Source: Blastococcus saxobsidens (GTDB lineage: Bacteria; Actinomycetota; Actinomycetes; Mycobacteriales; Geodermatophilaceae). Taken from it: DNA of 64,000 bases. The notes below the pieces were generated by a model, which saw only the letters and a program-made list of their open reading frames with translations, searched no databases and was not told the DNA's origin. This document shows positions 4,825-31,860 of the stretch, piece after piece; positions within the stretch are counted from its first letter, which is position 1; each line of letters begins with the position of its first letter. The stretch lies in assembly GCF_010682065.1 (NCBI RefSeq), contig NZ_JAAGWG010000027.1, positions 1 through 64,000 of the forward strand, read 5' to 3'. A program made the translations under genes and the position numbers.

Positions 4825-5502
4825 TCAGTCCGCCGCTGCCGCCACGACCGCCTCGCCCAGCGCCTCGCCGATGAGCGCAGCGGCGCGGGCGGTCGGGTGG
4901 ATGCCGTCGTCGGTCATGCCCGGGGCGTAGCGGTCGTCCTCGCGGACGTCCTCCATCGCGTCGACGAAGTCCCACCCCTCGTCGTCGGCCAGCTCGGCCA
5001 GCACCTCGTTGGTCGCCACCGCGATCTCCGGTGCGGGATCCCGCGGGGGTACCGCCGAGATCACCACCTGCTCGACACCCACGCGGTCCACGACGGCCCG
5101 GATGTTGTCGGCGGTCCCCTCGCCGGAGATCCCGGCGCGGGGGTCGTTGGTGCCGGCGAGGATCACCAGGACGTCCGCGTCGACCGGGGTGGCGGCGGCC
5201 AGCATGTCCTCGGTCGTCGCGCCGGCGCGGGCCCAACCGCCGGCGAAGCGCGCCCCCTGACCGGTGGCGGTGTCCAGCCAGGACGTCGGCCCGATCCTCC
5301 CGCGGGGGACGTCGCCGTCCGCCTGGGTGATGGAGTCGCCGATCACCGCGAGCCGGACGTCGGCGCCCGCGCCGGCCGCCGGTGCCGCGGGACCCGGGCC
5401 GGGGCCATCGCCGCCGGCGCACCCCGCGAGGAGCGTGCCGACGGCAGCGACGAGGACCGCACCGCGGCCGATGGTCAGAGGACGGGACGCGGTGCGGAAC
5501 AC
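4825..5502 (-). CDS. SGNH/GDSL-hydrolase lipoprotein
   Basis: A 225-residue exported hydrolase. The signal peptide ends in a lipobox (GTLLAGC, Cys about residue 28), so it should be lipid-anchored outside the membrane. Block I is VIGDSITQ with the nucleophilic Ser, block III is LAGTNDPRAG (Asn oxyanion residue), and the final block is DDGIHPT (catalytic Asp and His). These families are esterases or acyl-sugar deacetylases; the substrate is not evident. It is convergent with the LCP gene (16-base gap) and lies just downstream of, and on the same strand as, the YfhO-like gene. The start GTG at 5502 is preceded directly by GGAAGG. A paralogue of the same design lies at 18796-19488, so two such lipoproteins flank the polysaccharide region. 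Confidence 0.88.
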   Translation of the reverse strand: MFRTASRPLTIGRGAVLVAAVGTLLAGCAGGDGPGPGPAAPAAGAGADVRLAVIGDSITQADGDVPRGRIGPTSWLDTATGQGARFAGGWARAGATTEDMLAAATPVDADVLVILAGTNDPRAGISGEGTADNIRAVVDRVGVEQVVISAVPPRDPAPEIAVATNEVLAELADDEGWDFVDAMEDVREDDRYAPGMTDDGIHPTARAAALIGEALGEAVVAAAAD

Positions 5503-5556: not shown

Positions 5557-7911
5557 TCAGCCCGCGGAGCGGCCCGTCTCGGCCCGGCGGTCGCGACGCA
5601 GGCCCGGTACCAGCGCTCCCACGAGGAGGAGCGCGCCGAGCCCGGTGCACCACGGGAGCACGCGCGCACCGATCGGCTCGAAGAAGATCTCGAGCCGGCC
5701 GGAGTCCACGCCGGCGGGGAGCTCCACCTGCAGCACCGCGTCGGCGAAGGCCGACACCTCCACGGGGCGGCCGTCCAGGGTCGCCCGGAAGCCGTTCCAG
5801 TAGGGCGTCCGGAAGACCAGGCGGCCCTCGTCGTCACCGGTCGACACGGTGTAGCTCTCCAGCGGCCTGCCGAGCGTGGCCACGCCGTCGTTCGGTGCCG
5901 CGTCCTCCACGGAGACGCCTCCGGTCGGGGCCAGACCGACCCGGCCGGGCAGCGGCTCGCGTCGCACGTACTCCGTCCAGCCGTCGCGGGTCTCCCCCTG
6001 GTCCCAGTTCTTCGCGAAGTAGGTGCCGATCGACAGGGGCACCGCACCTTCGACACCGAGCAGGACGCGGTTCGACGACAGGAGGTCCACCCAGGGGACG
6101 TCCGCCCCCTCCGGGATGCGGAACCAGGCCCGCTGCTTCGGCTCCAGCGAGCTCTGGAAGTCGGCTCGGACGTATCGCTGGACCCCCTCGGGCCAGACCG
6201 CCAGCGAGCCGTACCCGGGTCGGAGGCCGGCCAGCAGGTTCAGGTTCCCGCCCAGCACCCCCTGTTCCCAGCCACGATCGTCGAAGTCGTCGAAGGCCCG
6301 GAAGGGGTAGACGGTGAGGGAGGTGTCGGTCGCGAAGGAGTTCCGCCGGAACTCCTCCACGGTCGTGCCGACGTCGTAGCCGCCGGACTGGGGCCGGTAG
6401 ATCGGCACCCCCTCCTGGTCCTCGTCCAGGACGATGAGCTCGTACCTCTCCTGGACGGTCGACTGCAGCGCGAGCTGCAGGGGCAGCGTCGACGCGCACA
6501 CCGCGAGCACCGTCGCGGCCGCTGCCGGCCGCACCCAGCGCCGCGAGGCGAACCGGAGAGGGGAAGCTCCGGGGCGCAGGAGGAGTACGACGGCCGCGAG
6601 GCCCGCCACCGCGAGCAGCAGGCCGATGACGTGCCAGCGCCAGAGGACCGGCGACCGCATCGTGGCGACGACCAGCTGCAGACCGATCAGCCCCGCGGCG
6701 ACGGCCACCCGGCGCCGGGTGAGCGTCGTCGCCGCGGTGAGGGCGAGGACCACGAGCAGCCCGAAGGCGACCTGCACGACCGAGAGCAGGCGGAACGGGA
6801 TGCGGAAGACCAGGAAGTAGTCGGGGAGCTGCGTCCACAGCACCGCGGCGATCCACAGGGCGGCGGCCGTGACCACACCCGGCCCGCGCACGGCCCGCCG
6901 CCAGTCGACCAGCGCCACCAGGGGCAGGGCGATGACCGTGGTGCTGAAGATGGGGAGGCTCGAGGCGTTCAGCAGGGTCGGGCCGCCGACCACGATGTCC
7001 AGCAGGTTGGTGCCGGTGCCGGCGGCCCCGATCGTCGCCGCGGGCGGCAGGCGCCACATCCAGGGCGCGACGTCGAGGGCGTTCACCAGCGTGGGTGCGC
7101 TGAGGACCGTCCCGGCCAGCAGCGCCAGGACGGTCGACCACGTCCGCCGCTCCCGGAGGACCGCACGGCCGCCGACGCGCCAGCGCTCGTAGGCCTGGCA
7201 GGCGACCAGGATCGGGAGCAGCGGCCAGATGTAGGGATTCCCCGCACCCACTGCCGCGGCGAACGCGAGCCCGACCCCCAGGACGCCGTACCAGCGCCGC
7301 GAGCTGAGCGAGGCCCACAGCCAGACGAGCGCGGCGAGGCTCCACATCGAGGGCGTCCAGGCCGGTCCGTACCAGATGAGGAACCCGCTGGTCGTCACCC
7401 CGAGCGCCGTGGCGACGGCCAGCGCGGGCCGTACGTGGTGGTTCAGCAGGAGCGCGAGGGCAGCCGCCCCCAGGACGAGCAGGCACACCCACCCGTGCAC
7501 GGTGGACACGAGGACCAGGTCCTGCTGATCCCCGGCCCACACCATGAATGGCCAGCGGAGGACGTCCAGCGTCCCGTTCTGCATGTCCGCGGTCAGGTTC
7601 CCGGCCATGCCCTGGTCCGGGTCCAGCAGCGGCAGGGAGCCGTCGCCCAGCTGCCGGCCGAGCCACCAGTACATGGGCATGAACTGGATCTGGGCGTCGT
7701 CGAACCAGAAGAAGCGCGGAGCCACGGCGCGCAGCACGGCCAGCAGGCACAGCTGCACGACCAGGTAGAGCGGGAACGCCCACAGCCCCGGTCGCCGACC
7801 GGTCCACGTCCTCCTCCCGTCCGGGTCCCGGACCGTCGGCACCGGGCCCGCCGCCCCGACGCCGGGCGCGTCGTCGGTCGGCGGCTCGGCGATCGGCCGG
7901 GACAGGCTCAT
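5557..7911 (-). CDS. YfhO-like polytopic membrane protein (putative GT-C type transferase), copy 1
   Basis: A 784-residue membrane protein with a first transmembrane helix near residue 50 (LWAFPLYLVVQLCLLAVLRAV) and about a dozen more, then an exposed C-terminal domain of some 280 residues. The first outer loop has RFFWFDDAQIQFMPMYWW; acidic residues here are typical of GT-C glycosyltransferases that use polyprenyl-phosphate sugars. The C-terminal domain ends with a beta-rich FRTPYWNGFRATLDGRPVEV block seen in YfhO-family proteins. ATG at 7911 has GGAG upstream. Its closest relative in the window is 15379-17793, with the same loop motif and C-terminal block. YfhO in Bacillus is linked to lipoteichoic acid glycosylation. 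The sugar and acceptor here are unknown. Confidence 0.85.
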   Translation of the reverse strand: MSLSRPIAEPPTDDAPGVGAAGPVPTVRDPDGRRTWTGRRPGLWAFPLYLVVQLCLLAVLRAVAPRFFWFDDAQIQFMPMYWWLGRQLGDGSLPLLDPDQGMAGNLTADMQNGTLDVLRWPFMVWAGDQQDLVLVSTVHGWVCLLVLGAAALALLLNHHVRPALAVATALGVTTSGFLIWYGPAWTPSMWSLAALVWLWASLSSRRWYGVLGVGLAFAAAVGAGNPYIWPLLPILVACQAYERWRVGGRAVLRERRTWSTVLALLAGTVLSAPTLVNALDVAPWMWRLPPAATIGAAGTGTNLLDIVVGGPTLLNASSLPIFSTTVIALPLVALVDWRRAVRGPGVVTAAALWIAAVLWTQLPDYFLVFRIPFRLLSVVQVAFGLLVVLALTAATTLTRRRVAVAAGLIGLQLVVATMRSPVLWRWHVIGLLLAVAGLAAVVLLLRPGASPLRFASRRWVRPAAAATVLAVCASTLPLQLALQSTVQERYELIVLDEDQEGVPIYRPQSGGYDVGTTVEEFRRNSFATDTSLTVYPFRAFDDFDDRGWEQGVLGGNLNLLAGLRPGYGSLAVWPEGVQRYVRADFQSSLEPKQRAWFRIPEGADVPWVDLLSSNRVLLGVEGAVPLSIGTYFAKNWDQGETRDGWTEYVRREPLPGRVGLAPTGGVSVEDAAPNDGVATLGRPLESYTVSTGDDEGRLVFRTPYWNGFRATLDGRPVEVSAFADAVLQVELPAGVDSGRLEIFFEPIGARVLPWCTGLGALLLVGALVPGLRRDRRAETGRSAG

Positions 7912-8317: not shown

Positions 8318-10540
8318 GTGCCGGTTCACCGGGAGACGACCATCGAGCGAGGCACCGGCGAACAGATGCCGCCGGCGGACGACGTGACGGCCCGGATCGC
8401 CCCTGTCGGTGCCGGCCGGGCCCCCGCCCGGGCCGCCCGCCCCGCGCCGCGCGCCGAGGCGACGTCGGCTGTGCGCGTCGAGATCCAGGCGCTGCGCGCC
8501 CTGGCCGTCTCGCTGGTCGTCATCTACCACGTGGTGCCGCTGCGGATGCCCGGCGGCTACGTCGGCGTCGACGTCTTCTTCGTCGTCTCGGGCTTCCTCA
8601 TCTCCGCTCACCTCCTGCGGGAGGTGGAGCGGACGCAGCGCATCCAGCTGGCGAGGTTCTGGGCCCGCCGGGCCCGGCGGCTCCTCCCCGCATCGCTGTT
8701 CGTCCTGCTCGCCTCGGCCGCCGCCACGGTGCTCTGGGTCCCGCAGACCTACTGGCAGGGCTGGCTGCGCGAGATCGGCGCCTCGGCGATCTACCTGGAG
8801 AACTGGGTGCTGGCCTGGGACGCGGTCGACTACCTGGCCGCGCACAACGTCGCCTCGCCCGCGCAGCACTACTGGTCGCTGGCCACGGAGGAGCAGTTCT
8901 ACCTGCTCTGGCCGCTGCTGGTCGTCGGCTCGGTCTGGCTCGCGAGCCGGCTGCGGATCCACCGGCGCGCGGCGATCGCGGCGGTCTTCGGCGTGCTGAC
9001 CGTCGGCTCGTTCGCCTACTCCCTCTGGACCACCCAGACCTCCCCGCCGGACGCCTACTTCACCACTCCCGCACGCGCCTGGGAGTTCGGCCTCGGCGGT
9101 CTCCTCGCGGTGTGGGCGGCCACTCCCCCGGCGGGCCGGCACCGGCTCCGCTCGGTCGTCTCGTGGGCCGGTTTCGGCGCGATCGCCTACGCCGCGTTCG
9201 AGTACACCGCCGAGACGCCTTTCCCGGGGACGGCGGCCCTGCTCCCCGTGCTCGGCACCGTGGCGGTCATCTGGGCCGGCGCGCCGCAGGGCGACTGGAG
9301 CCCGACCAAGCTCGCCGACTTCGGCCCGGTCCGCTTCCTCGGCGACATCTCCTACTCGGCCTACCTGTGGCACTGGCCGCTGGTCGTGATCCTGCCGTTC
9401 GCGCTGGGCCACCCGCTCGGGACGACGTCGAAGGCGGGGATCATCGTGGCGACGCTGGTCGCCGCGTACGTCACGAAGATCTGGGTCGAGGACCCGGTGC
9501 GCACCGGAACCTTCCTGTCCCGGCGCGGAACGGGCACCACCTTCCTGGCCACGGCGGTCGCCACGGCTGCCGTCGTCGCCGTCGCCGCGGCCGGCTGGCT
9601 GCACGTGAGTAACTCCGTCGCGCAGGCCGAGGTGGCTGCGCAGGCGGCCGCCAGCAGCTCGGACCCCTGCTTCGGGGCCGGCGCGATGCTCCCGGGGCGG
9701 GACTGCGCCGATCCCTTCGCCAACCAGGGCGACGCGGCCAACCCGATCTTCGCCAAGTCCGACGCCTCGGATGGCCTGCAGTGCGCGCAGGGCGGCACCG
9801 ATACGACTCCCAGGACGTGTCGCTTCGGCAGTTCGACCCCCACGGAGACGGTCGCGCTCATCGGCGACTCGCACACCGCGAGCCTCTACGAGGCTCTCCA
9901 GCAGGTGGCCGAGGACCGCGACTGGGCGGTGGTCACCTACTTCAAGTTCGGCTGCCCGGCGCTCGGCACCGATCGCATGCTCGGGCCCGGCATGCCGCTG
10001 GACGAGGCAACCGCGTGCGGCGGCTGGTCGCAGAACGCACTCGAGCAGATCGCCCAGGACGAGTCGATCACCCGCGTGTTCACCAGCTACCGCAACGACA
10101 TCTACAAGTGGGCGGAGGACGACGGAACGCTGCTCGACGGCATCCCCGTCGAGGCAGCCCAGGCGCCGCTGCGGATGCTGGCCGAGGCCGGCAAGCAGGT
10201 GCACGTCGTCCGCGCCGTGCCCACGACCGGCGGTGTGCACCTGGGCGAGCTGAAGACCCTCGAGTTCAACGTCCCCGACTGCATCGCGACCGCCGTCGGA
10301 GCCGATGACCCCTGCGCCGGTCCTCGTGCGGTGCGCGTCGCTCCCGACCACCTCGCCGACGCCGCCCTCGCCATGAACGACGACCGGGTCTCGGTCCTCG
10401 ACCTGACCGACGCCTTCTGCGACGCGCAGACCTGCCACACGCTCATCGGCGGCGTGACCGTCTACTCCGACGGCAGCCACGTCACGAGCACGTTCTCGCG
10501 GACCCTGGGTCAGTTCCTGGACCGGCAGCTCCAGCGCTGA
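8318..10540 (+). CDS. OafA/YrhL-type membrane O-acyltransferase with fused SGNH domain
   Basis: A 740-residue acyltransferase-3 family protein that would O-acylate (usually acetylate) a cell-surface glycan. The AT3 membrane domain (about residues 50-420) opens with VEIQALRALAVSLVVIYH, giving the family R-X10-H motif, and has the GVDVFFVVSGFLI segment and RRARRLLPAS. The periplasmic SGNH domain (about 460-740) has LIGDSHTASLYEAL (Ser nucleophile) and YSDGSHVT (Asp/His). This two-domain layout is that of OafA: AT3 moves the acyl group across the membrane and SGNH completes the transfer. The GTG at 8318 follows GAGGGCAGC; the next in-frame Met is at residue 17. It faces the nucleotidyltransferase of the six-gene operon across a strong terminator, so it may decorate the glycan made by that operon. 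Confidence 0.92.
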   Translation: MPVHRETTIERGTGEQMPPADDVTARIAPVGAGRAPARAARPAPRAEATSAVRVEIQALRALAVSLVVIYHVVPLRMPGGYVGVDVFFVVSGFLISAHLLREVERTQRIQLARFWARRARRLLPASLFVLLASAAATVLWVPQTYWQGWLREIGASAIYLENWVLAWDAVDYLAAHNVASPAQHYWSLATEEQFYLLWPLLVVGSVWLASRLRIHRRAAIAAVFGVLTVGSFAYSLWTTQTSPPDAYFTTPARAWEFGLGGLLAVWAATPPAGRHRLRSVVSWAGFGAIAYAAFEYTAETPFPGTAALLPVLGTVAVIWAGAPQGDWSPTKLADFGPVRFLGDISYSAYLWHWPLVVILPFALGHPLGTTSKAGIIVATLVAAYVTKIWVEDPVRTGTFLSRRGTGTTFLATAVATAAVVAVAAAGWLHVSNSVAQAEVAAQAAASSSDPCFGAGAMLPGRDCADPFANQGDAANPIFAKSDASDGLQCAQGGTDTTPRTCRFGSSTPTETVALIGDSHTASLYEALQQVAEDRDWAVVTYFKFGCPALGTDRMLGPGMPLDEATACGGWSQNALEQIAQDESITRVFTSYRNDIYKWAEDDGTLLDGIPVEAAQAPLRMLAEAGKQVHVVRAVPTTGGVHLGELKTLEFNVPDCIATAVGADDPCAGPRAVRVAPDHLADAALAMNDDRVSVLDLTDAFCDAQTCHTLIGGVTVYSDGSHVTSTFSRTLGQFLDRQLQR

Positions 10541-10589: not shown

Positions 10590-11330
10590 TCAGACGGGGC
10601 GGCCCGTGGCCTGGTAGGCGGCCAGCTCCTCCGGCGTCCCGAAGCAGTAGAAGTCACCGCGGACCAGGCCGACCCGGCGGCCGGAGGCGATGAGCTCGTT
10701 GAAGATCAGCGACACGTAGTACTCGGGCATGGCGGCGTCGATCTGCTTGGCCATCAGCCGGTCCGCCGCCTCCAGGAACACCCGGGCGGAGGTGAACGAG
10801 TAGACGCCCATGAGCGCGTCCGAGGAGATGGCCTGCTTCTCGGCGGTACGGACCACGAGACCGTCCTGACCCACCTCGGCGAAGCTGTACCGGGGCTCGG
10901 TGGAGCGGAAGGACAGCAGGAGACCGTCCAGGTCGCCCTGCTCGACCGCCTTGTCCAGCGCCGCGAAGTAGCCGGGGCTGTCGAACGCGATGTCGCAGTC
11001 CATGATCACCAGCGGCTGGTCCGGGTCGAGCCGGTCCCGGGCCTCCAGGCAGGTCTCGACGGCGCCGCGGGTGTTCTGCTGGAGCTGCACGATCCGCGCC
11101 CCGGGCTCGGCGGCGAGCACCTGCGGCGTGAGGCCGTGCTCGGCGTCGTCGTCCGCGCGGACGACGACCGTCACCGTCTTGTCGCCGGCCCAGGGGGCGA
11201 ACGAGCGGAGCGCGCGCTGGAACATCGGGCCCCCGTCGACCTCGATGAGCGGCTTGGGCGTGGTGATGCCGACCTTGCGGAACCGGGTGCCGAGCCCGCC
11301 CATCGGCATGAGCACCTGCAGGGTCGCCAT
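10590..11330 (-). CDS. Sugar-phosphate/polyol-phosphate nucleotidyltransferase family protein
   Basis: A 246-residue NTP-transferase. The signature LMPMGGLGTRFRKVG then TTPKPLIEVDG gives the nucleotide-binding loop and the Lys of the PKPL motif; VIMDCDIAF (about residue 115) supplies the metal-binding Asp. Such enzymes couple a phosphorylated small molecule to a nucleoside monophosphate. The likely start is the ATG at 11330, overlapping the stop of the glycosyltransferase gene (TGATG); an in-frame upstream start at 11402 would lie inside that gene and precede the conserved domain by 24 residues. It is the last gene of the six-gene operon. Together with the kinase domain encoded upstream it could form a phosphorylate-then-activate pair, as LicA and LicC do for choline. 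The substrate is not evident. Confidence 0.85.
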   Translation of the reverse strand: MATLQVLMPMGGLGTRFRKVGITTPKPLIEVDGGPMFQRALRSFAPWAGDKTVTVVVRADDDAEHGLTPQVLAAEPGARIVQLQQNTRGAVETCLEARDRLDPDQPLVIMDCDIAFDSPGYFAALDKAVEQGDLDGLLLSFRSTEPRYSFAEVGQDGLVVRTAEKQAISSDALMGVYSFTSARVFLEAADRLMAKQIDAAMPEYYVSLIFNELIASGRRVGLVRGDFYCFGTPEELAAYQATGRPV

Positions 11331-12100
11331 CACTGCACCTCGTCCCACTCGTAGTCGCGCGGCTCGGCCGGCGGCTCCGACGTGCGCCGGCCCACCCGCC
11401 ACTGGGCCAGGTTCACCAGCGCCGTCCGGAAGATGTTCCAGTTGCGCGCGTTGGACACCTGGTCCTCCTCGCGCCAGGTGATCGGCACGAAGGCGAACCG
11501 GACCTTGCGCGCCACGAGATCGAGGATGAGCTCGTAGTTGAACGTCAGCTTGTCGGCGAAGCGCAGGTAGGTGGTCGGGTCGAGGTCGCGCAGGGCGAAG
11601 AGGTTGAGCCCCGAGCCGAGGTCCTGCAGGGGGCGGAGGGCCACCGCGCTGTAGACGGTGTTGAGCACCCGGTTGCCCCAGACCCGCTTGGCGTCGTAGC
11701 CGTGCAGGTTCGACCTGCGGCTGAACCGCGAGCCGAGGACCGTCTGCGTGTCCGGGTGCGCCGCTGCGTGGTCCAGGAGCAGGGCCACCTCGTCGCTCGC
11801 GGCCTGGTTGTCGCCGTGCAGGATCACCACGTGGGTGTGGCCCGCGGCGCGGGCGTGCTCGAAGGCGACCTTGTGCGTGCCGCCGAGGCTGTTGTTCTGC
11901 CGGTTGCGGAACACCCGCAGGTTCGGCAACCGGCCGGTGCGGCGGTACTCGAGCGCCCGCTCGAGCGTGTCGTCGGTGCTGCGGTTGTCGATGACCCAGA
12001 TCTCGGCGACGCGGGCGGCAAGCTCGGGGGTGATCTCGTCGAGCACCCGGCCTATCTGCGGCGCGCAGTTGTAGGCCGGGATGGCGATCACGGTGTTCAC
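11330..12100 (-). CDS. GT2-family glycosyltransferase (dolichol/polyprenyl-phosphate sugar synthase-like)
   Basis: A 256-residue GT-A-fold enzyme of family 2. It starts VNTVIAIPAYNC, carries IWVIDNRSTDDT (about residue 37), LHGDNQA (metal-binding region), and ends with ITWREEDQVSNARNWNIFRTA. The order resembles DPM1/GtrB enzymes, which move a sugar from a nucleotide donor to a polyprenyl phosphate on the cytoplasmic face. I see no clear membrane helix, unlike GtrB. GTG at 12100 overlaps the TGA of the upstream gene (GTGA), and its own stop overlaps the next ATG. Alongside GtrA and a YfhO protein in the same operon it would be the GtrB-like member of a three-component glycosylation system. Confidence 0.85.
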   Translation of the reverse strand: MNTVIAIPAYNCAPQIGRVLDEITPELAARVAEIWVIDNRSTDDTLERALEYRRTGRLPNLRVFRNRQNNSLGGTHKVAFEHARAAGHTHVVILHGDNQAASDEVALLLDHAAAHPDTQTVLGSRFSRRSNLHGYDAKRVWGNRVLNTVYSAVALRPLQDLGSGLNLFALRDLDPTTYLRFADKLTFNYELILDLVARKVRFAFVPITWREEDQVSNARNWNIFRTALVNLAQWRVGRRTSEPPAEPRDYEWDEVQ

Positions 12101-14316
12101 CGGCTCAGTATCTCCTGGCGCCTCGGCGGCCCACCGACGGCCGCGCGGTCCTCGTCCTGGGCGGTCGGGTCGTACTGGTCGAGGAAGCCGTTGAGCGCCT
12201 GGATGCAGACGCCGTAGTACTTCAGCACCGTGCCCGCATTGATCGCCACGCGGTGGGTGAGCATGCGGCCGTAGAACAGGCCGACGTGGAAGAGCACCGC
12301 GCGCTGCTCGGCGACGGTGAGGTGCCGCGGCATGATCTCGGTCTCCACGTGATCGGCCAGCTCCGCGTAGCGGGCCGAACGGGCGTCCCGGTAGGTGATC
12401 TCGGGCAGGCCGTCCTGCTCGCCGAGCACGACGGGGTCGTCGTCGTCGTTGAGGAACTCGTAGCCGTACAGGAGCGACTGCATGTGCCGCGCGAAGTCGA
12501 TGACCGGCCCGCGCAGCTGGTTGTCGTCGGACGGGTCGATGATCAGCACGTCCCGGGCGGGCAGGTCCACGAGGATGTTGTCGACGGTGAGGTCGCCGTG
12601 GATCTGGGCCGACGAGCGGAACGTGGCCAGGTCGTTCCAGGCGATCTCGTGGCTCTGGATGCGGGCGAGCACCCGGTCGAAGTTGTCCAGCTCCTGGCCG
12701 TTGACCACGATCCGGTCGGCCTTGAGCGCCTCGGCCAGCGCGGGGTGCGACTCGGCGGCCGCGCGCACGCGCAGCACGAAGCGCTCGGTCACGTAGTCGT
12801 CGCGGACGTCGGGCCGGTTCTCGAGCTGCCCCAGGTCGTAGACCCGGCCGTACATGTACGCCCAGACCTCGCTGAGCTTGGCCGCGCTCTCGGCGAACGA
12901 GTTCTCGTGCACGTACTCGAACAGCGGCACGCTGCTGGGCCGGTACTCGAGGTCGATCGCGTAGTGGTCGGGTGCGTGCTGCTCGCGGAGCACCGTGACC
13001 AGCTCGCCGTGGTCGGCCCGCTCGGCCAGCCAGTCGTACTGGTTCTTCAGCCGGTGCGCGTACTCCGGGGGGACCATCTTCTTGACGAACAGCTCGCCGT
13101 CGCTGCTGGTGGCCAGCAGGGTGACGGCGTTGGAGCCGCCCTTGAAGAACCGGACCAGGCTGACGTTGCCGTCGACCTCGAGCCGGTGCATCACCTGACT
13201 GAGGCGCTGACGCTGGAAGTAGGCGTCGAGGAAATGGGTCATCGAACCGGAGATGTCCTGCTCGCGGCCCAGCTTGTTGGCGTAGCCGTCGGACGGCGCG
13301 AGCTCGGCACCAGCGATCGGGGCGCTGGTGCGCCGGGCCCAGTTGACGAACAGGGCGATCACCGCCACCACCAGCACCGGGATGGTGACCACTGCCCACG
13401 ACGCCGCGGCGAACAGCGCCACCGTGCCGACGTCGAGCGACGTGCTGCCGGCGAAGAAGCTCTGCACGTTCTCGGCATAGGTCCCCGGCGCGCCGTTGCC
13501 GATGCTGGGGCTGACCACCCCGGCCGGTGCGGCGGCGGCGACGAGCGCCGCCTGGCCACCGAGCACCGGGAAGACCGTGAACGCCGCCATCGCCGCGGCC
13601 GCCCCGTAACAGGCCCAGGAGGTCAGGGTGAGGACGGCGTAGCGGGCGAGCTGGCGCCGCTGGCGGAAGAACCGCTGGAAGCCGAAGATCACCGACCACA
13701 GCTTGAACCTGGCCCGGTTCTCGAGGTCGTGGTTCAGCCAGCTGGTCGCCTGCCAGGCCACCCGCATGAGCAGGGTGTTCTCCCGTACCAGCGCGGCGAA
13801 GGAGGCGATGAGCAGCACCGACACCGCCAGCGCCACCATCGCGGCGACCGGGACGACACCGAAGTCGGAGGTGCCGACGACCGCAAGCAGCACGAGGAAC
13901 GCCACCGAGACGAGCACGACGTCGATCAGTCGCTCGAGCACGACCGCCAGCAAGGTGTACAGAAAGCTGATCCGCAGCGTCTTGGCCACCAGGTAGGACC
14001 GGACGACCTCGCCGATCCGGAGCGGCCAGACGACGTTGAAGAGATATCCGATCGCCAGGTGCCGGAACTGACCGGCCAGGCTGCCCCGGCGGACGTTGTC
14101 GATCGGCACCTTCGTGCGCGCGGCGCGCAGGACGTGCCCGAGCAGCTGCACAGCGGAGGCCGCGAGCAGGACGCCCCAGCCGGCCCCGGAGAGCCCGGAG
14201 GACAGCCGCTGCCACATGTCGCTCAGAGATGGCCAGGTGAAGGCCACGAAGCCGGCGAGGGACAGCAGCGCGACGACGATGAGGGCCAGCCGGCCGCGGG
14301 AGTAGCGGGGGAACAT
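12097..14316 (-). CDS. Fusion of LPG_synthase_TM (UPF0104) flippase-like domain with an APH-like kinase domain
   Basis: A 739-residue two-domain protein. Residues 1-330 form the polytopic UPF0104/LPG_synthase_TM domain (related to MprF flippase and AglD), with FNVVWPLRIGEVVRSYLV carrying the family R-x-GE element and a final helix near 309-327. Residues about 350-739 look like an aminoglycoside/choline-kinase fold: glycine-rich FKGGSNAVTLLA (391-402), Lys in LFVKKM (412/413), catalytic QIHGDLTVDNIL (His573, Asp575, Asn580) and metal-binding LIIDP (Asp594), then PVIDFARHMQSLL. All key kinase residues are present. ATG at 14316 overlaps the HAD stop, and its own stop overlaps the GT2 GTG. I infer phosphorylation of a small molecule at the membrane, possibly coupled with lipid-carrier movement. 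An inactive kinase fold acting as a sensor is an alternative. Confidence 0.8.
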   Translation of the reverse strand: MFPRYSRGRLALIVVALLSLAGFVAFTWPSLSDMWQRLSSGLSGAGWGVLLAASAVQLLGHVLRAARTKVPIDNVRRGSLAGQFRHLAIGYLFNVVWPLRIGEVVRSYLVAKTLRISFLYTLLAVVLERLIDVVLVSVAFLVLLAVVGTSDFGVVPVAAMVALAVSVLLIASFAALVRENTLLMRVAWQATSWLNHDLENRARFKLWSVIFGFQRFFRQRRQLARYAVLTLTSWACYGAAAAMAAFTVFPVLGGQAALVAAAAPAGVVSPSIGNGAPGTYAENVQSFFAGSTSLDVGTVALFAAASWAVVTIPVLVVAVIALFVNWARRTSAPIAGAELAPSDGYANKLGREQDISGSMTHFLDAYFQRQRLSQVMHRLEVDGNVSLVRFFKGGSNAVTLLATSSDGELFVKKMVPPEYAHRLKNQYDWLAERADHGELVTVLREQHAPDHYAIDLEYRPSSVPLFEYVHENSFAESAAKLSEVWAYMYGRVYDLGQLENRPDVRDDYVTERFVLRVRAAAESHPALAEALKADRIVVNGQELDNFDRVLARIQSHEIAWNDLATFRSSAQIHGDLTVDNILVDLPARDVLIIDPSDDNQLRGPVIDFARHMQSLLYGYEFLNDDDDPVVLGEQDGLPEITYRDARSARYAELADHVETEIMPRHLTVAEQRAVLFHVGLFYGRMLTHRVAINAGTVLKYYGVCIQALNGFLDQYDPTAQDEDRAAVGGPPRRQEILSR

Positions 14317-14918
14317 CAGAAGTGCGGCACCTCGAGGACGGACAGGCCGGCTGCCAGGGCTGCCTGGCGACCGGTCTCGGAGTCCTCGAAGGCCAAGCCG
14401 TCGGCAGCGTCCACGCCGAGCCCGGCCAGCGCCTTCCGGTAACCCTCCGGATCCGGCTTGCTACGGGCGACGTCGTCCCCCCAGACGACGACGTCGAAGA
14501 GCTCCCGGAGCCCGTGCGCCGCCAGGATCTGCTCCCCGTTGCCGGATTTCGCGGTGCTGACCAGGGCGGTCCGGTGGCTGGGAGCCACCAGCCGCAGGAA
14601 CGCGACGAGCGCGGTGTTCACCGTGGTGCGGTCGAGCAGATCGGCGTACAGCACGCTCTTGGCGGCTCGGATGGAGTCCACGGCCGCGCCGTCGATCCCG
14701 GGCAGCAGGTCGGGGATGAAGTCCCGCGAGTCCCGTCCCCACGTCGTCTCGAACTGCTCGGGGGTCAGCTCGTGCCCAGCGCCGGCGAAGGCGCCGCGGT
14801 AGGCCTGGTAGTTGGCCTCCCGTGTGTCCACGAGCGTGCCGTCCAGGTCGAACAGCAGTGCCCGGACGGTGCTCACGTACCTGCTCATGTCCCGCTCCCC
14901 CACCATCGCGCTCGTCAC
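14316..14918 (-). CDS. HAD-superfamily (subfamily IA) phosphatase
   Basis: A 200-residue HAD hydrolase. Motif I is LLFDLDGTLVDT (nucleophile Asp), motif II is ALVSTAKSG, and motifs III/IV are RSKPDPEGYRKAL and AFEDSETGRQAA. The helical cap between motifs I and II is of the beta-phosphoglucomutase/phosphoglycolate-phosphatase kind. The GTG at 14918 overlaps the GtrA stop (GTGA) and has GGGAGGGG upstream; an ATG at 14888, also behind a purine-rich stretch, is possible. The C-terminus overlaps the flippase-kinase start. In an operon with a kinase and a nucleotidyltransferase it is expected to dephosphorylate or isomerise an intermediate, for example when a phosphorylated precursor must be processed before activation. 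Confidence 0.87.
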   Translation of the reverse strand: MTSAMVGERDMSRYVSTVRALLFDLDGTLVDTREANYQAYRGAFAGAGHELTPEQFETTWGRDSRDFIPDLLPGIDGAAVDSIRAAKSVLYADLLDRTTVNTALVAFLRLVAPSHRTALVSTAKSGNGEQILAAHGLRELFDVVVWGDDVARSKPDPEGYRKALAGLGVDAADGLAFEDSETGRQAALAAGLSVLEVPHF

Positions 14919-15382
14919 CGAGTCCCCTCCCTGACCTCGACCACGTCCCGGCCCGCGAGGGGACCGTCGGTCGGGGACTCCGCCGGGCGCCCGGAACGCC
15001 GGAAGATCACTCTGCTGAACACGAAGTTGGCAGCGAAGGACAGGGGCAACGAGGCCAACTTACAGATGAAGGGCAGCCATCCCGTGGTGTCGTGCAGGAT
15101 CTGGATGACGACGGAGAAGGCAGCGATCGAGACGGCGTAGTAGGCGACGAACACCGCGAACGACGTCCGTGACCGTTCGGCCCGGAAGACGTACCTCGTC
15201 ACCACGGCATACATCACCACGACGGCGCAGCCGGAGCTCACCACGTTGGCGACGCCCGGCGGAGCGCCCAGCCGCACGCCGGCCTCGAACACCGCCAGGT
15301 CGACCGTGAGGCCGATGCAGGTACCGACCAGGAAGCGGAGGACCTCGAGCGCGAGGGAGCCCAACCGCTGTCGCCCGTTCAC
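14915..15382 (-). CDS. GtrA-family membrane protein (putative lipid-linked sugar flippase)
   Basis: A 155-residue protein with four membrane helices in the GtrA pattern: FLVGTCIGLTVDLAVFEAG, VVSSGCAVVVMYAVVTRYVF, FVAYYAVSIAAFSVVIQIL and KLASLPLSFAANFVFSRVIF. GtrA proteins are proposed to flip polyprenyl-phosphate sugars to the outer face. The C-terminal tail (after RRSGRPAES) is polar. GTG at 15382 overlaps the stop of the YfhO gene (GTGA) and its stop overlaps the HAD GTG. It is one of two GtrA genes in the window; this one is embedded in the glycosylation operon, whereas 22493-22984 sits alone in the conserved purK neighbourhood. Confidence 0.9.
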   Translation of the reverse strand: MNGRQRLGSLALEVLRFLVGTCIGLTVDLAVFEAGVRLGAPPGVANVVSSGCAVVVMYAVVTRYVFRAERSRTSFAVFVAYYAVSIAAFSVVIQILHDTTGWLPFICKLASLPLSFAANFVFSRVIFRRSGRPAESPTDGPLAGRDVVEVREGTR

Positions 15383-17793
15383 CGCCCCCCACCCGCCAAC
15401 AGCACGGCGCGCCGGCGCCCGGTCCCGCGCTCCACGATGGCCACGGCGCAGCTCGCGAGCACGATGACGAGCAGGCCGAGGACCACTGCCGGCGTCATCA
15501 GCGCGACGCCGATCGGGCGGAACGAGACCTCCAGACGGCCGTCCGTCACCTGCGCCGGCACCTCGATCGCCAGGGCCGCGCCCTCGATGCTGGTGACCTC
15601 GACCGGCCGGCCGTCGAGGGTGGCCTCGATGCCGGGGTAGTACGGGGTGCGGAAGGCGAGCCGGCCCGGCTCGCTGCCGGTGGAGACCGCGTAGCTGTCC
15701 ATCGGCTCGTCCATCCGGGCCAGGTCAGAGCGCCAGCCCTCCATGGAGACCGTGACGCCGGCGGCGGCGGTGATGCGACCAGGCAGCACGTCGTCCCGCT
15801 GGTACTCCGTCCAGGCGCCGTCGGTCCCGGCAGTCCGCCAGCCGGAGTCGAAGTGCTCGCGGATCTCCGGCGGCGCATCGTCGTCGAGCAGCACCGTGTC
15901 CGAGGCCAGGAGCTCCAGCCATGACACACCGGTGTCCCCGGCCGGAGCGAGCAGCTGGGCCGGCGTGGAGCAGGTGGCGCCCTGGTAGTTGCGGCACCAC
16001 TTCTCGTTGATCCCGTCGTGCCAGACGGCGAGGGAGCCGAAACCCGGACGCAGACCGGCCGGCAGGTTCGCGTTGCCCACGAGGACACCGGAGTCCCAGC
16101 CCCAGTCCGGATCGATGCCGAAGGTGACCACCGTCGCCGCCGTGTCGGTCCGGACCGACCGCTCCCGGTAGTCGTCGGTCCGGGTGCCCACCCAGTAGCC
16201 GTTGGCCAGGGCCCGGAAGGGCTGACCGTCGCTGTCGGTCCCCTCGATGGCGTCCACCCGCTCCTGCACGGCGACCATCATGTGCACGCTCACCAGCGGC
16301 GCGATGGTGACCAGCAGGGCGACCAGCACCCCGGCCTCGCGCCGGAACCGGGGACCGGCGAGGTGGACGACGAGAGCCGCCAGGCCTGCCGCGGCCACCA
16401 CGCCGGCGACCACGTGCCACTTGTAGAACACCGGCGCGCGGAAGCAGGCCAGGAGGAACTGGGCGAGCACGATGCCCGCGGCCACGCGGACCCGTGTGCG
16501 CGTGATCCTCCGCGCGGCGACGAGGGCGATGAGCGCCAGCGCCGGCAGGAACACCTCGGCCACGACGAGGTAGCGCACCGGGTACCGGAACACCGCCACG
16601 GTGGTCGGCAGCTGGGTGGCCACCACGGCGGCGAGGTACACCAGGCCGGCCGTCACGACGCCCGGGGCGGCCAGGGCGCGCCGCCAGTCGACGAGGGCGA
16701 GCGCCGGCAGCGCCACGAGCATGGTGGCCATGGCCGGGACCAGCCCGATGTTCCCGCTCCAGGCGTTGGTCTGGCCCATCAGCGTCGCCCCGCCGAGCAG
16801 CACATCGGCGAAGTTCGTCACGGCGAAGCCGATGTTGCCGATCAACGGGTCGCCCTCGGGCCGGCCCATGACGCTCGAGAGCTGCAGGGCCGTCAGCAGG
16901 GTGGGGAGCGCGACGATGCAGCCCCCGACCGCGGAGACGGTGCGGATGACCAGGACCCGGTCCACCACGCCGCGCCAGCCGCCGGCCGACCGGCGGCGTT
17001 CCACGAGGTGGCCGGCGACCAGCACGACGACGAAGAAGAGGACGTAGGGGTTCCCCGAGGTCAGCAGCGCCCAGCTGGACACCCCGATCGCGAGCACCGC
17101 AGGTGCGCCACGGCCCACCAGCCCGAACCAGAACCACGGCAGCCAGGCAACGCTCCACAGCAGCGGCCACCACGAGCTGCCGTACCAGAGGAAGAACCCG
17201 CTGGACGCCATGCCGACGGCGCCGGCGACGGCCAGCACCACGGGCACCCGGTGGGTGAGCAGGATCGCCAGCGACCCGAGTCCCAGCCACGTGACCGAAA
17301 CCGCGCCGAACAGGAAGGAGATGAGGAGGAAGTCCCCGGAGGTCGCGGCGAGGGCCTGCATGACCCAGTGCAGCGGATCCAGAGCGCCGTACTGGATGTC
17401 GCCGAGGAAGTTGCCGCCCATGCCCTGCTCGGGGTCGAGGATCGGCGGGCGACCGCCCTCGGCGTTGCGCCCCAGCCACCACATCATGGGCAGGAACTGC
17501 GCCAGGGAGTCATCGAGGTAGAAGAAGCGCGGCGCGCTGCGGGCCAGCTCCAGGAGCACGAGCGCCTGGAGCGCCAGGTAGGCGCCGACCGCGACCAGCA
17601 CGCCCCGCGCGTCCGGGCGCCGGGGAACGGGCGGGACTGCTGCAGCCCGGGAAGCCACCGGGACATCGTCCCGCTCTGCGGCAGACACGTCGAGCACGTC
17701 GTGCGACCTCTCGTAGTGGGACAAGGCGAGCCTCCGTCGGGGCCCACCCGGGCCGGCCGGCGAGCCCTCCGGGACATCCGTCACCCGATGCAT
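15379..17793 (-). CDS. YfhO-like polytopic membrane protein (putative GT-C type transferase), copy 2, first gene of the six-gene operon
   Basis: About 804 residues from the preferred ATG at 17793, which has GAGG five bases upstream; in-frame starts at 17814 and 17940 exist but are less supported, the latter colliding with the divergent gene. After a polar N-terminus of about 55 residues comes a first helix (GVLVAVGAYLALQALVLLELA) and the outer-loop motif RFFYLDDSLAQFLPMMWW, parallel to copy 1. Further helices run to about residue 525, then a C-terminal domain with FRTPYYPGIEATLDGRPVEV, and a last helix near the C-terminus. In a Gtr-like system this would be the outer-face transferase that moves the flipped sugar to its acceptor. 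The stop overlaps the GtrA start. Confidence 0.85.
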   Translation of the reverse strand: MHRVTDVPEGSPAGPGGPRRRLALSHYERSHDVLDVSAAERDDVPVASRAAAVPPVPRRPDARGVLVAVGAYLALQALVLLELARSAPRFFYLDDSLAQFLPMMWWLGRNAEGGRPPILDPEQGMGGNFLGDIQYGALDPLHWVMQALAATSGDFLLISFLFGAVSVTWLGLGSLAILLTHRVPVVLAVAGAVGMASSGFFLWYGSSWWPLLWSVAWLPWFWFGLVGRGAPAVLAIGVSSWALLTSGNPYVLFFVVVLVAGHLVERRRSAGGWRGVVDRVLVIRTVSAVGGCIVALPTLLTALQLSSVMGRPEGDPLIGNIGFAVTNFADVLLGGATLMGQTNAWSGNIGLVPAMATMLVALPALALVDWRRALAAPGVVTAGLVYLAAVVATQLPTTVAVFRYPVRYLVVAEVFLPALALIALVAARRITRTRVRVAAGIVLAQFLLACFRAPVFYKWHVVAGVVAAAGLAALVVHLAGPRFRREAGVLVALLVTIAPLVSVHMMVAVQERVDAIEGTDSDGQPFRALANGYWVGTRTDDYRERSVRTDTAATVVTFGIDPDWGWDSGVLVGNANLPAGLRPGFGSLAVWHDGINEKWCRNYQGATCSTPAQLLAPAGDTGVSWLELLASDTVLLDDDAPPEIREHFDSGWRTAGTDGAWTEYQRDDVLPGRITAAAGVTVSMEGWRSDLARMDEPMDSYAVSTGSEPGRLAFRTPYYPGIEATLDGRPVEVTSIEGAALAIEVPAQVTDGRLEVSFRPIGVALMTPAVVLGLLVIVLASCAVAIVERGTGRRRAVLLAGGGR

Positions 17794-17931: not shown

Positions 17932-18750
17932 GTGGCGCACATCGACCCCACGGGTCCCAACATCACGAATCCGGTCGCACTGCTGGACGCTTCCCTGCGG
18001 AGGAACGCGGCCGCACCGCTGATCACCTACTACGACGACGCGTCAGGCGAACGGACGGAACTGTCCGCTGCCACCCTCGCCAATTGGGTGGCCAAGACGG
18101 CCAATCTGCTCCAGGACGAGTTCGACGTCACCGCGGGCAGCACGGTGGCCGTCGCACTCCCGGTGCACTGGCAGACCGCGGCGGTCCTCCTGGCCGTGTG
18201 GGGCTGCGGTGCCACGGTGCTCGACACCGCGGCTCAGGACGACGGACGGCTGAGCGGCGCCGACGTCGTCCTCGCGTCGCAGGACCGTCTGGCCCCGCTC
18301 GAGGAGCTGGACGTCCCGGAACTGCTGGGCCTCTCCCTGCACCCGCTGGGCATGGGAATGGCCGGCTACTCCGGCCCGGCTCGGGACTTCGCGCTGGAGG
18401 TACGGACGCACGGCGACCACTTCGCGCCCTGGCAGCGACCGGATCCGGTCGCACCGGGCCTGCGCGTCGGTGAGCTCGAGCTGACGCTCGGTGGCCTGGT
18501 CGAAGCCGCCTCGGAACTGGCCCGGCGGATGGGGCTCGGCGCCGGCGACCGTGTGCTCGTCGATGCCCGCGTGGCGGCCGAGGCCGGTCCCGTCGCCTGG
18601 CTGCTCGCGCCGCTGGCAGCCGGCGCGTCCATGGTCCTGGTGAGCTCGGCGGAGGTGTCCGGGCTCGCGCAGCGGGCGGCGAGCGAGCGGGTGACGGCAA
18701 CCTTCGGCCACCGGCTCGACGGCATCCGCGAGCTGGGCCGCGACGCCTGA
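17932..18750 (+). CDS. TIGR03089 family protein (AMP-ligase N-terminal-like, Rv3268 type)
   Basis: A 272-residue protein resembling the N-terminal part of acyl-CoA synthetases/AMP-binding enzymes, with an early LITYYDDASGERTELS segment, NWVAKTANLLQDE, and a LLAPLAAGASMVLV segment, but without the P-loop STSGTTG motif or the C-terminal subdomain. This matches the TIGR03089 family of actinobacteria, typified by Rv3268 next to the LCP gene Rv3267. The truncated fold lacks the residues needed for adenylation, so a binding or regulatory role is more likely than ligase activity. The GTG at 17932 gives a start agreeing with the family. It is divergent from the six-gene glycosylation operon. Confidence 0.8.
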   Translation: MAHIDPTGPNITNPVALLDASLRRNAAAPLITYYDDASGERTELSAATLANWVAKTANLLQDEFDVTAGSTVAVALPVHWQTAAVLLAVWGCGATVLDTAAQDDGRLSGADVVLASQDRLAPLEELDVPELLGLSLHPLGMGMAGYSGPARDFALEVRTHGDHFAPWQRPDPVAPGLRVGELELTLGGLVEAASELARRMGLGAGDRVLVDARVAAEAGPVAWLLAPLAAGASMVLVSSAEVSGLAQRAASERVTATFGHRLDGIRELGRDA

Positions 18751-22492: not shown

Positions 22493-22984
22493 GTGGGACT
22501 CCTCGCACGGCTGCGCAGCCTCCTGCGCGGGAGCCACGGCCGGCTGGCCCGGGAGCTCGGCGCCTTCGGCGTCGTGGGCGCGGCGTGCTTCGTGCTCGAC
22601 CTCGCCGTCTTCCAGCTGCTGTACGCGCACGGTGGTCTGGAAGCCGTCACGTCGAAGCTGCTGGCGAGCTGCGTCTCGACCACCGCTGCTTTCGTGGGCC
22701 ACCGGTTCTGGTCCTTCGCGGCGCGGGCCCGCACGGGCCTGCGCCGCGAGTACCCGCTGTTCCTCGCGATCAACGGCGCGACGCTACTGCTCAGCCTGGG
22801 CATCGTGGCCCTGGTCCGCTACCCGCTGGGGCAGGAGGATGCGCTCGTGCTCCAGGCGGCCAACGTGTTCTCGATCATCACGGGCACCGTCGTCCGCTTC
22901 ACGGCGTACCGCCGCTGGGTCTTCCTCGATCCGGCTGCGCGACCGCCCTGGGTGCAGCGACAGGCCGGCGACCTGGCCCGCTGA
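22493..22984 (+). CDS. GtrA-family membrane protein (Rv3277 type)
   Basis: A 163-residue protein with four membrane helices: LGAFGVVGAACFVLDLAVFQLL, SKLLASCVSTTAAFVGHRFW, PLFLAINGATLLLSLGIVAL and LQAANVFSIITGTVVRFTAY, ending YRRWVFLDP, a typical GtrA finish. It probably moves a polyprenyl-linked sugar across the membrane. Its place beside purK matches Rv3277 of mycobacteria. The GTG at 22493 is set by the TAGACT hexamer just upstream. Unlike the GtrA at 14915-15382 it has no glycosyltransferase partner in its own transcript; dprE/ubiA products further right (31105-34194) make a polyprenyl-phosphate arabinose that a flippase would need to move, though that link is only conjecture. Confidence 0.9.
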   Translation: MGLLARLRSLLRGSHGRLARELGAFGVVGAACFVLDLAVFQLLYAHGGLEAVTSKLLASCVSTTAAFVGHRFWSFAARARTGLRREYPLFLAINGATLLLSLGIVALVRYPLGQEDALVLQAANVFSIITGTVVRFTAYRRWVFLDPAARPPWVQRQAGDLAR

Positions 22985-23101: not shown

Positions 23102-23518
23102 TCAGCGGTCCGCCGGGGAGGTGGTGACGTCGCCACCCGATGCGGGACCGACCGAGGCGAGCCGGTCGAACACCAGGTCGGCCAGTTGCGCGACGCGCAG
23201 TGACAGCCGCCGGGACTCCTGGAGATCGGTCGTGACCTCGTCCAGCCGCCGCTCGAGAACCTCGAGCCGCTCGATGATCCGGGCGATCGCGTCGTCGGCC
23301 AGCCCGCCGCGCCGCCGCGCGTCCTCGAGCACCTCGGCGAGCGCGGCGAGGTCTCGGGCGCCGGCCGCGATGCGGGTGTCGAAGTCGCGGCTCTGCGCCT
23401 CGGAGCCGGCGCTCAGCCGGTCCACCTCCTGCCGCAGCCGGGAGACGTCGTCGAGCCGGGCGATCGTGCCGGGGGCGATCCTGCGGAACGCCCGGACGAG
23501 GGCTTCCCGAGGGCTCAT
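23102..23518 (-). CDS. Small coiled-coil protein, partner of the LicD-methyltransferase gene
   Basis: A 138-residue soluble protein without signal peptide or membrane segment. After MSPREALVRAFRRIAPGTIARLDD it is almost wholly heptad-like helix: VSRLRQEVDRLSAG, LAALAEVLEDARR, IARIIERLEVLERRLDEVTTDLQESRRLSLRVAQLADLVFDRL. The ATG at 23518 overlaps the stop of the upstream gene (ATGA), so the two are translationally coupled; an in-frame extension to 23764 is only the shadow of that gene. I do not recognise a family. The tight coupling suggests that it binds the LicD-methyltransferase protein or oligomerises with it. In the O-antigen terminator WbdD a coiled coil attached to the methyltransferase measures chain length; a similar role here is speculation. 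Confidence 0.75.
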   Translation of the reverse strand: MSPREALVRAFRRIAPGTIARLDDVSRLRQEVDRLSAGSEAQSRDFDTRIAAGARDLAALAEVLEDARRRGGLADDAIARIIERLEVLERRLDEVTTDLQESRRLSLRVAQLADLVFDRLASVGPASGGDVTTSPADR

Positions 23519-31104: not shown

Positions 31105-31860
31105 TCAGAAGGGCAGCCGCCGGAACACCGCGCGGGGGGTGTGCCGCAGGCCGCTCATCACCCAGCGCATGGCTCCCGGCACCCAGACCGTGTGCCGGCC
31201 GCCGCGGACGCCGGCGACGATCGCCTCGGCCACCGCCTCCGGCGTGGTGGAGAGCGGGGCGTCGGGCAGGCCCTCGGTCATCTTGGAGCGCACGAACCCG
31301 GGGCGGACGACGAGCACGGACACCCCGCTGCCGGCCAGCGAGTCGCCGAGGCCCGAGTAGAAGCCGTCCATGCCGGCCTTGGTGGAGCCGTACACGTAGT
31401 TCGCCTTGCGCACCCGCTCCCCCGCGACGGAGGACAGCGCCACGACGACGCCGTGGCCCTGCGCCCGCAGGCGGACGGCCAGCTCGGTGCCGACCGCCAC
31501 GGCGGCCACGTAGTTGACCTGCGCCAGGTGCGCCGCGGCCGCGCTGTCGGTGCGCAACCGGTCGGCGTCGCCCAGCTGGCCGAAGGCGACCACCGCGACG
31601 TCGATGTCGCCGCCCGCGGCCGCGGCGGCGACCATCCGCGCCGGGGAGCCGGGGTCGTCGGCGTCGAAGTCGACGACCTCCACCTGCCCGCCGGCCGCCC
31701 GGAGCTCCTCGGCGACGGCCGCGCGGCGCGGCGTCTCCCGAGCGGCGAGGACGATGCGCAGCGGCCGCTCCGCGAGGTAGCGGCGGGCGGTGGCGACGGC
31801 GATGTCGGACGTGCCGCCGACGAGCAGCAGCGAGCCGACGGAACCGAGGGCGTCGATCAC
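31105..31860 (-). CDS. dprE2: Decaprenylphospho-beta-D-erythro-pentofuranosid-2-ulose reductase (DprE2)
   Basis: A 251-residue short-chain dehydrogenase. It completes the epimerisation of decaprenyl-phosphoryl ribose to arabinose by reducing the 2-keto intermediate made by DprE1. The nucleotide-binding start is LLLVGGTSDIAVATARRYL, with the VALSSVAGERVRKANYVYGSTKAG segment giving the Ser, Tyr and Lys of the SDR active site and VLVVRPGFVRSKMTEGL following. The GTG at 31860 overlaps the dprE1 stop (GTGA). The three genes ubiA-dprE1-dprE2 form one transcript and make the sole known donor for wall arabinan. Confidence 0.93.
   Translation of the reverse strand: MIDALGSVGSLLLVGGTSDIAVATARRYLAERPLRIVLAARETPRRAAVAEELRAAGGQVEVVDFDADDPGSPARMVAAAAAGGDIDVAVVAFGQLGDADRLRTDSAAAAHLAQVNYVAAVAVGTELAVRLRAQGHGVVVALSSVAGERVRKANYVYGSTKAGMDGFYSGLGDSLAGSGVSVLVVRPGFVRSKMTEGLPDAPLSTTPEAVAEAIVAGVRGGRHTVWVPGAMRWVMSGLRHTPRAVFRRLPF

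Follow-up and report, generated by a model that had tools for sequence, protein, structure and literature searches.

An overlapping six-gene operon in Blastococcus saxobsidens

What is made by an operon whose six overlapping genes encode both candidate membrane glycosylation proteins and a kinase, a hydrolase, and a nucleotidyltransferase-like protein? Such an operon occupies positions 10590 to 17793 of the first 64,000 nucleotides of contig NZ_JAAGWG010000027.1 from Blastococcus saxobsidens, the stretch analyzed here and referred to as the window. We conclude that it probably encodes a system for extracytoplasmic glycosylation that includes a donor-activation arm of its own. Four of its products, a HAD hydrolase, a flippase-kinase fusion, a family 2 glycosyltransferase (GT2), and a sugar-1-phosphate nucleotidyltransferase-like protein (NTPT), form a unit that recurs from Actinomycetota to Saccharibacteria.

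As originally predicted, all six open reading frames were found overlapping on the minus strand. They encode a YfhO-like GT-C-type membrane protein (15379-17793; 804 amino acids), GtrA (PF04138; 14915-15382; 155 amino acids with about four hydrophobic segments), the HAD hydrolase (PF13419 HAD_2; 14316-14918), a fusion of a flippase-like domain (PF03706) to an APH-type kinase (12097-14316; 739 amino acids), the soluble GT2 (PF00535; 11330-12100; 256 amino acids), and the NTPT (PF12804/PF00483; 10590-11330; 246 amino acids). From the YfhO-like gene to the NTPT gene, the five junctions overlap by 4, 4, 1, 4, and 1 bases and read GTGA, GTGA, TGATG, GTGA, and TGATG, so the predicted overlap at every junction was confirmed, given the upstream-most HAD start. 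Pfam searches of the window proteins supported the assignments of GtrA (4.9e-12, above the Pfam cut-off), HAD_2 (1.7e-25), GT2 (4.5e-16), and NTPT (PF12804 and PF00483, 1.7e-10 and 1e-8).

Conservation within the family and order

The six-gene set is conserved yet patchy within the family Geodermatophilaceae and its order. The nearest copy, in a genome of the same genus, has a fusion 95% identical to that of the window. Counting the window's own genome, the fusion was present in 6 of 60 relatives, and its C-terminal 447 residues, which make up the kinase half, were matched in 14 of the 397 order genomes searched. NTPT and GT2 were found in exactly the same six relatives as the fusion, save for one weak NTPT match in genome G024. 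Thirteen other family loci were fetched at 18 to 20 kb, and 12 of them carry all six genes in order, which argues that the operon is not a chance arrangement; the exception, Trujillonella locus L033, is without YfhO. Co-occurrence of the six families in actinobacterial genomes, put forward with the original prediction as a way to check it, was thus borne out. With start codons picked by script for these tallies and for the spacings, the HAD, fusion, GT2, and NTPT genes are spaced -1/-4/-1 in 10 of the 13 loci (exceptions: L011, -1/-13/-1; L027, -1/+20/-1; L033, -1/-4/-4). The GtrA-HAD junction is loose, at +1 to +110 bp in 11 loci, and overlaps only in L007 and L033.

A four-gene core recurs in distant bacteria

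A scan of genome contigs with the kinase alignment, which used two short patterns and misses relatives lacking them, returned 24 loci. Fifteen belong to Blastococcus, Geodermatophilus, Modestobacter, or Trujillonella and one each to Pseudokineococcus and an Actinomycetota metagenome-assembled genome (MAG); the rest come from three Myxococcus genomes, two Saccharibacteria MAGs, one deltaproteobacterial MAG, and one Elusimicrobia MAG. These distant loci rule out a system confined to Actinobacteria. In tblastn searches with the window proteins, HAD, GT2, and NTPT were each matched in 22 of the 24 loci, GtrA in 16, and the YfhO-like protein in 15; misses were counted before allowing for contig ends, and L047 is too short upstream to show YfhO. 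Pfam added GtrA in L057 and L061, which stop at contig ends and whose genomes carry adjacent GT2 and NTPT genes on another contig (L072 and L073).

The deltaproteobacterial and elusimicrobial MAGs present a variant form. L062 and L063 have no separate HAD gene; their NTPTs (profile E values of 9e-11 and 3e-18; L062:11116-12177 and L063:11080-12141) end in a HAD-like domain that belongs to another HAD subgroup and scores under the Pfam cut-offs. Beyond the 24-locus scan, the analysis took in two more genomes of the Saccharibacteria class. In one (L080), genes for a PF00459 protein, GT2, NTPT, two GT-C-like proteins, HAD, flippase-kinase, and GtrA lie on one strand, and in the other (L079) the same families occupy both strands of a stretch of about 13 kb. 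Another genome of the Myxococcus phylum (L081) has HAD, fusion, NTPT, and GT2. The genes beside GT2-NTPT in Saccharibacteria may hint at the identity of the sugar. They are a PF01182 sugar-phosphate isomerase/lactonase-family gene in L072:6571-7263 and L073:1014-1736 and a PF00459 phosphatase-family gene in L080:8036-8971 and L079:18505-19401.

Among 13 chosen taxa, from which L062, L063, and others were excluded, pairwise distances of HAD, fusion, GT2, and NTPT correlated at r values of 0.95 to 0.98 for all six gene pairs. The original prediction of a donor-activation arm made up of the kinase, HAD, and NTPT is supported by this co-inheritance with GT2 and by the shared distribution of fusion, NTPT, and GT2 among the 60 relatives, six of which hold all three. 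The grouping of six genes, also part of that prediction, holds within the family; the recurring heart of the system is four genes, with GtrA and YfhO replaceable.

The flippase-kinase fusion and the soluble enzymes

In the fusion protein, PF03706 covers residues 16 to 274 (9e-17; 61.9 bits against a gathering cut-off of 33.4) and the APH-type kinase covers residues ~347 to 739. The two halves are joined in all 25 aligned members. Eight residues of the PF03706 half (P98, R100, G102, E103, R106, E128, R129, and D132) are invariant in the 25 fusions, as are the GGSN motif, K413, HGD575 (12592-12600), N580, and D594 of the kinase. Of seven distant kinase halves compared with the APH cut-off, those of L055, L058, and L059 pass, that of L063 lies at the cut-off, and those of L057, L061, and L062 fall under it.

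The nearest NCBIfam family of the HAD protein is the beta-PGM/YqaB subfamily (101 bits against a cut-off of 153), and its top PDB match is TM_1254, a phosphatase of phosphorylated carbohydrates. Residues D24, D26, K154, E178, and D179 do not vary among the 15 aligned HAD proteins. The NTPT is nearest to 4evw, followed by GlmU and enzymes of heptose pathways, and its residues G12, R16, K26, D111, D113, E164, and K165 are unchanged in all 16 aligned sequences. The best NCBIfam neighbor of the GT2 is AglJ, with PpgS also listed, and the GT2s of relatives have ArnC and dolichyl-phosphate hexose transferase among their neighbors, all under the curated cut-offs. These likenesses point to a GT2 that may load polyprenyl phosphate, though glycosyltransferases that act without a lipid carrier stand in the same lists. 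D97 of its HGDxQ motif is conserved in all but one (L062) of 16 sequences. Because the catalytic motifs of kinase, HAD, NTPT, and GT2, with the roles we presume for their residues, are conserved, the enzymes of the operon look active.

GtrA and YfhO are exchangeable membrane components

The YfhO-like protein has about 15 hydrophobic segments and a large loop (residues ~512 to 755) ahead of the last transmembrane segment. An Asp-Asp pair (D94-D95; 17509-17514) after the first transmembrane segment does not vary among the 16 aligned sequences, two of which (L007/L040 and L028/L044) start at a non-start codon. An excerpt of PMC5836110 gives a large-loop topology and a loop motif for Bacillus subtilis YfhO and GT-C enzymes. 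The Pfam score gives the YfhO name little support; it is shape and motif that speak for a YfhO-like GT-C label. The role of outer-face transferase originally predicted for this protein fits its topology and motif; the PF09586 score given below weighs against it, and the gene is replaceable in distant loci.

In Saccharibacteria, a GT-C-like membrane protein with about 14 hydrophobic segments adjoins the module; all 5 sequences have a Glu after the first transmembrane segment, and in 4 of them Asp comes next. The corresponding neighbor in Myxococcus has about 11 segments and lies on the opposite strand. Topology suggests that both may be GT-C proteins. Homology of the Saccharibacteria protein to the YfhO-like protein (hhalign probability, 0.6%) or to the Myxococcus protein (0.1%) was rejected, the alignments being shallow and a shared fold possible. 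A profile made from nine GtrAs, which recovers every known GtrA of the distant set, found no match in the fetched stretches of L056, L058 to L060, L062, L063, and L081, and GtrA was accordingly rejected as an obligatory part. GtrA and YfhO are thus exchangeable parts of the system.

Two candidate flippases are present, the PF03706 domain and GtrA, and a flippase role of GtrA is therefore putative. The Gtr-like character proposed originally stands as regards the presence of GtrA and a GT-C-type membrane protein; the picture differs in the GT2, for which no transmembrane segment is predicted, and in GtrA being one of two flippase candidates.

A parallel cluster with an unrelated kinase

G024, a family member without the fusion, carries a cluster (L098:4138-15081) of two YfhO-like genes, a HAD of another subgroup, a membrane-kinase fusion, GT2, GtrA, and a double NTPT (563 amino acids with two NTPT stretches). 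The C-terminal part of the 697-residue membrane-kinase protein matches the phosphoribulokinase/uridine kinase family (8.8e-28), and its N-terminal part is weakly like GT87/ALG3 membrane enzymes. That an unrelated kinase, again fused to a membrane protein, keeps the same company speaks for a common logic linking kinase, HAD, NTPT, GT2, GtrA, and YfhO-like protein.

Proposed function and alternatives

Gene order, conservation, co-inheritance, intact catalytic motifs, and the soluble or membrane character of the products are direct observations; from them we propose the activities, the order of steps, the use of a sugar, and the type of acceptor. The HAD protein would remove phosphate from a sugar phosphate (isomerization seems less likely), and the membrane-tethered APH-type kinase would phosphorylate the free sugar, with C1 as the probable position. 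A nucleoside diphosphate sugar would then be formed by the NTPT, and from it the soluble GT2 would transfer the sugar onto polyprenyl phosphate. The PF03706 domain, GtrA, or both may carry the lipid-linked sugar across the membrane, where the YfhO-like GT-C protein would attach it to a wall glycan or glycoprotein on the outside. Because the GT2 is soluble, GtrA or the membrane half of the fusion may also anchor it, besides or instead of flipping its product.

Several observations weigh against this proposal. The GT2 has no predicted transmembrane segments by hydropathy and is without the membrane anchor usual in Gtr/CsbB enzymes; its NCBIfam lists also hold HpsE, GpgS, TuaG, PgaC, and GlfT1, which do not load lipids, and its PDB matches include chondroitin synthase and GpgS. 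GT2 and NTPT both score far under the NCBIfam equivalog cut-offs. The APH half of the fusion barely passes PF01636 (5.5e-5; 23.5 bits against 23.2), and a comparison of the kinase with solved structures gave no relative under an E value of 0.03. The YfhO-like protein of the window does not reach PF09586 (E = 0.51; 9 bits against a cut-off of 28.5), its gene is missing in Trujillonella (L033/L052), and YfhO-like proteins occur without the flippase-kinase fusion in G024, G006, and G055. With two candidate flippases, one would be redundant or misassigned. The weak NTPT match in G024 (5.6e-12) lies in a genome without the fusion, and the GT2 gene of L063 lies on the opposite strand. Correlated distances are to be expected of genes inherited together and are no proof of one pathway. 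The system is also rare among the genomes searched: a GT2 profile at E ≤ 1e-40 matched only the window's genome among 296 of the class, and the kinase profile, with centre genomes included, had matches in 2 of the 396 phylum genomes searched, in 3 of 147 from the Saccharibacteria class, in 2 of 117 from the Myxococcus phylum, and in 1 of 198 from the Elusimicrobia phylum.

Four other explanations were weighed. APH-fold kinases and MobA-like NTPTs serve phospho-alcohol routes, and the operon kinase could likewise act on a glycerol-, inositol-, or choline-like alcohol from which the NTPT would make a CDP-alcohol, as in LicA/LicC, with the substituent decorating a wall polymer. The PF00459 inositol-phosphatase-family gene ahead of GT2 in L079 and L080 agrees with such a route, as does a Bacteroides cluster of NTPT, HAD, and CDP-alcohol transferase for which CDP-inositol is proposed in an excerpt of PMC9246714. 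However, Pfam and NCBIfam searches of the six genes found neither LicD nor a CDP-alcohol transferase, AglJ (the best neighbor of the GT2) makes a lipid-linked sugar, and the NTPT is closest to sugar-1-phosphate enzymes, so we regard this route as unlikely. Kinase and HAD might instead act at the lipid stage, on a lipid-linked sugar or the polyprenol carrier, which would gain and later lose a phosphate during transport or recycling, rather than on free sugar. The unbroken fusion of kinase to flippase-like domain, the similarly fused unrelated kinase of G024, and the HAD domain that, in an excerpt of PMC11127046, dephosphorylates the loaded sugar in ribofuranose systems all favor this option; it is nevertheless rather improbable, given that a separate, co-inherited NTPT points to the making of a nucleotide sugar and that the NTPT is extended by a HAD-like domain in two loci.

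The two remaining explanations fare worse. If the kinase made a sugar-6-phosphate, the HAD protein could be a beta-phosphosugar mutase yielding the beta-1-phosphate for NTPT and GT2, an order that agrees with its beta-PGM/YqaB neighbor (under that family's cut-off) and with the many beta-PGM chains among its PDB matches. The top PDB match is a phosphatase, however, and the beta-PGM/YqaB subfamily also contains phosphatases, which makes this order highly improbable. That the genes are merely neighbors in a hot spot for envelope genes, without a shared pathway, is scarcely credible: although relative L102 holds other genes at the same site, the families stay together in distant phyla despite different surroundings and orders.

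Comparison with known systems

Trios of GT2, GtrA, and YfhO are already known, as in CsbB-GtcA-YfhO. According to excerpts of PMC5836110 and PMC8035078, that trio likewise combines GT2, GtrA, and a GT-C protein with a D-rich loop, and the latter source describes a lipid-linked sugar, flipping, and transfer at the outer face. The three-component cases described in that part of PMC8035078 add galactose (Gal), glucose (Glc), or N-acetylglucosamine (GlcNAc), their locus tags indicate that the three genes are not all together, and variants that pair a GT2 with a separate membrane partner have been described. The Blastococcus operon differs in its soluble GT2, its PF03706/kinase fusion, and the apparent supply of donor by HAD, NTPT, and kinase.

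That supply resembles the MupP-AmgK-MurU series of MurNAc salvage, in which, according to an excerpt of PMC5371407, the 6-phosphate is removed, C1 is phosphorylated, and a nucleotide is added. A HAD_2 phosphatase, an anomeric kinase, and a nucleotidyltransferase act there in series; the Blastococcus kinase corresponds through an APH-type sequence match, and its anomeric activity is putative. In contrast, the Blastococcus set would feed a lipid carrier rather than a peptidoglycan precursor, and its kinase is fused to a membrane domain. Membership was rejected: the HAD protein scored 27.9 bits against a MupP equivalog cut-off of 359, and the window NTPT had no match to the MurU equivalog at 1e-3, with two relatives scanned at 22 bits against 250. 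The likeness is therefore one of logic.

The pentofuranose system of Citrobacter O1/O2 shares a HAD domain, a lipid-linked sugar, a flippase, and GT-C, but its polyprenyl phosphoribose synthase and MATE flippase, as described in part of PMC11127046, are absent among the six genes. Pfam found no UbiA-type phosphoribosyl transferase among the six, and identity with that system was rejected for this reason. Searches of open-licence literature yielded no description of an activation arm with a flippase-kinase or of the six-gene set, in agreement with the earlier statement that no described system with this exact set was known. ADP/GDP-heptose pathways also make an unusual donor with a kinase, a HAD phosphatase, and a nucleotidyltransferase. 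They differ from the Blastococcus operon in kinase fold and HAD subgroup and are not known to include a lipid-carrier arm.

Genomic island and neighboring genes

The operon lies in an island bounded on the left by a LytR-CpsA-Psr (LCP) gene (3267-4808, plus strand) and on the right by an AMP-binding-like gene (17932-18750, plus strand), which are 13,123 bases apart in the window. LCP enzymes attach glycans to the wall, and an LCP gene at the island edge fits an envelope role. In the module-less relatives L101, L103, and L104, tblastn matches to the two flanking genes are separated by 2, 17, and 20 bases; L102, the fourth such relative examined, has other genes between them. The island also holds genes for a GDSL/SGNH hydrolase (4825-5502, minus strand), a second YfhO-like protein (5557-7911, minus strand) 44% identical to the first, and a SucT-like acyltransferase-3/SGNH protein (8318-10540, plus strand; 278 bits against a cut-off of 1275) that was matched in 9 of the 13 fetched family loci, in one at just 35% identity.

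Beyond the island, a short-chain dehydrogenase, an FAD/ALO oxidase, and a UbiA-family gene (33214-34194) lie at 31105-34194 and resemble what we take to be the decaprenyl-phosphate arabinose pathway; wall arabinan synthesis may thus be encoded close to the island. Another GtrA gene is found at 22493-22984. Outside the operon, the gene at 23515-25086 encodes a methyltransferase domain together with a short match to LicD (31.0 bits against a cut-off of 22.6; listed at 23518-25086), and an open reading frame between the LCP and AMP-binding genes of L102 looks, by eye, similar to it.

Implications

More tentatively, the operon could represent a previously undescribed, horizontally spread envelope glycosylation system marked by the flippase-kinase fusion, in which a sugar salvaged by phosphatase, kinase, and nucleotidyltransferase passes to polyprenyl phosphate and is exported and the fused kinase couples phosphorylation to transport. 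Such a system would extend across soil actinobacteria, Myxococcus, and Saccharibacteria with their reduced genomes, with GT-C and GtrA swapped and, in the G024 form, even the kinase fold. If the proposed function holds, one operon would bear both donor synthesis and outer-face transfer, which would be useful for finding new sugars and for separating the roles of PF03706 and GtrA, and the flippase-kinase fusion would mark an unrecognized glycan modification in distant bacteria, including Saccharibacteria.

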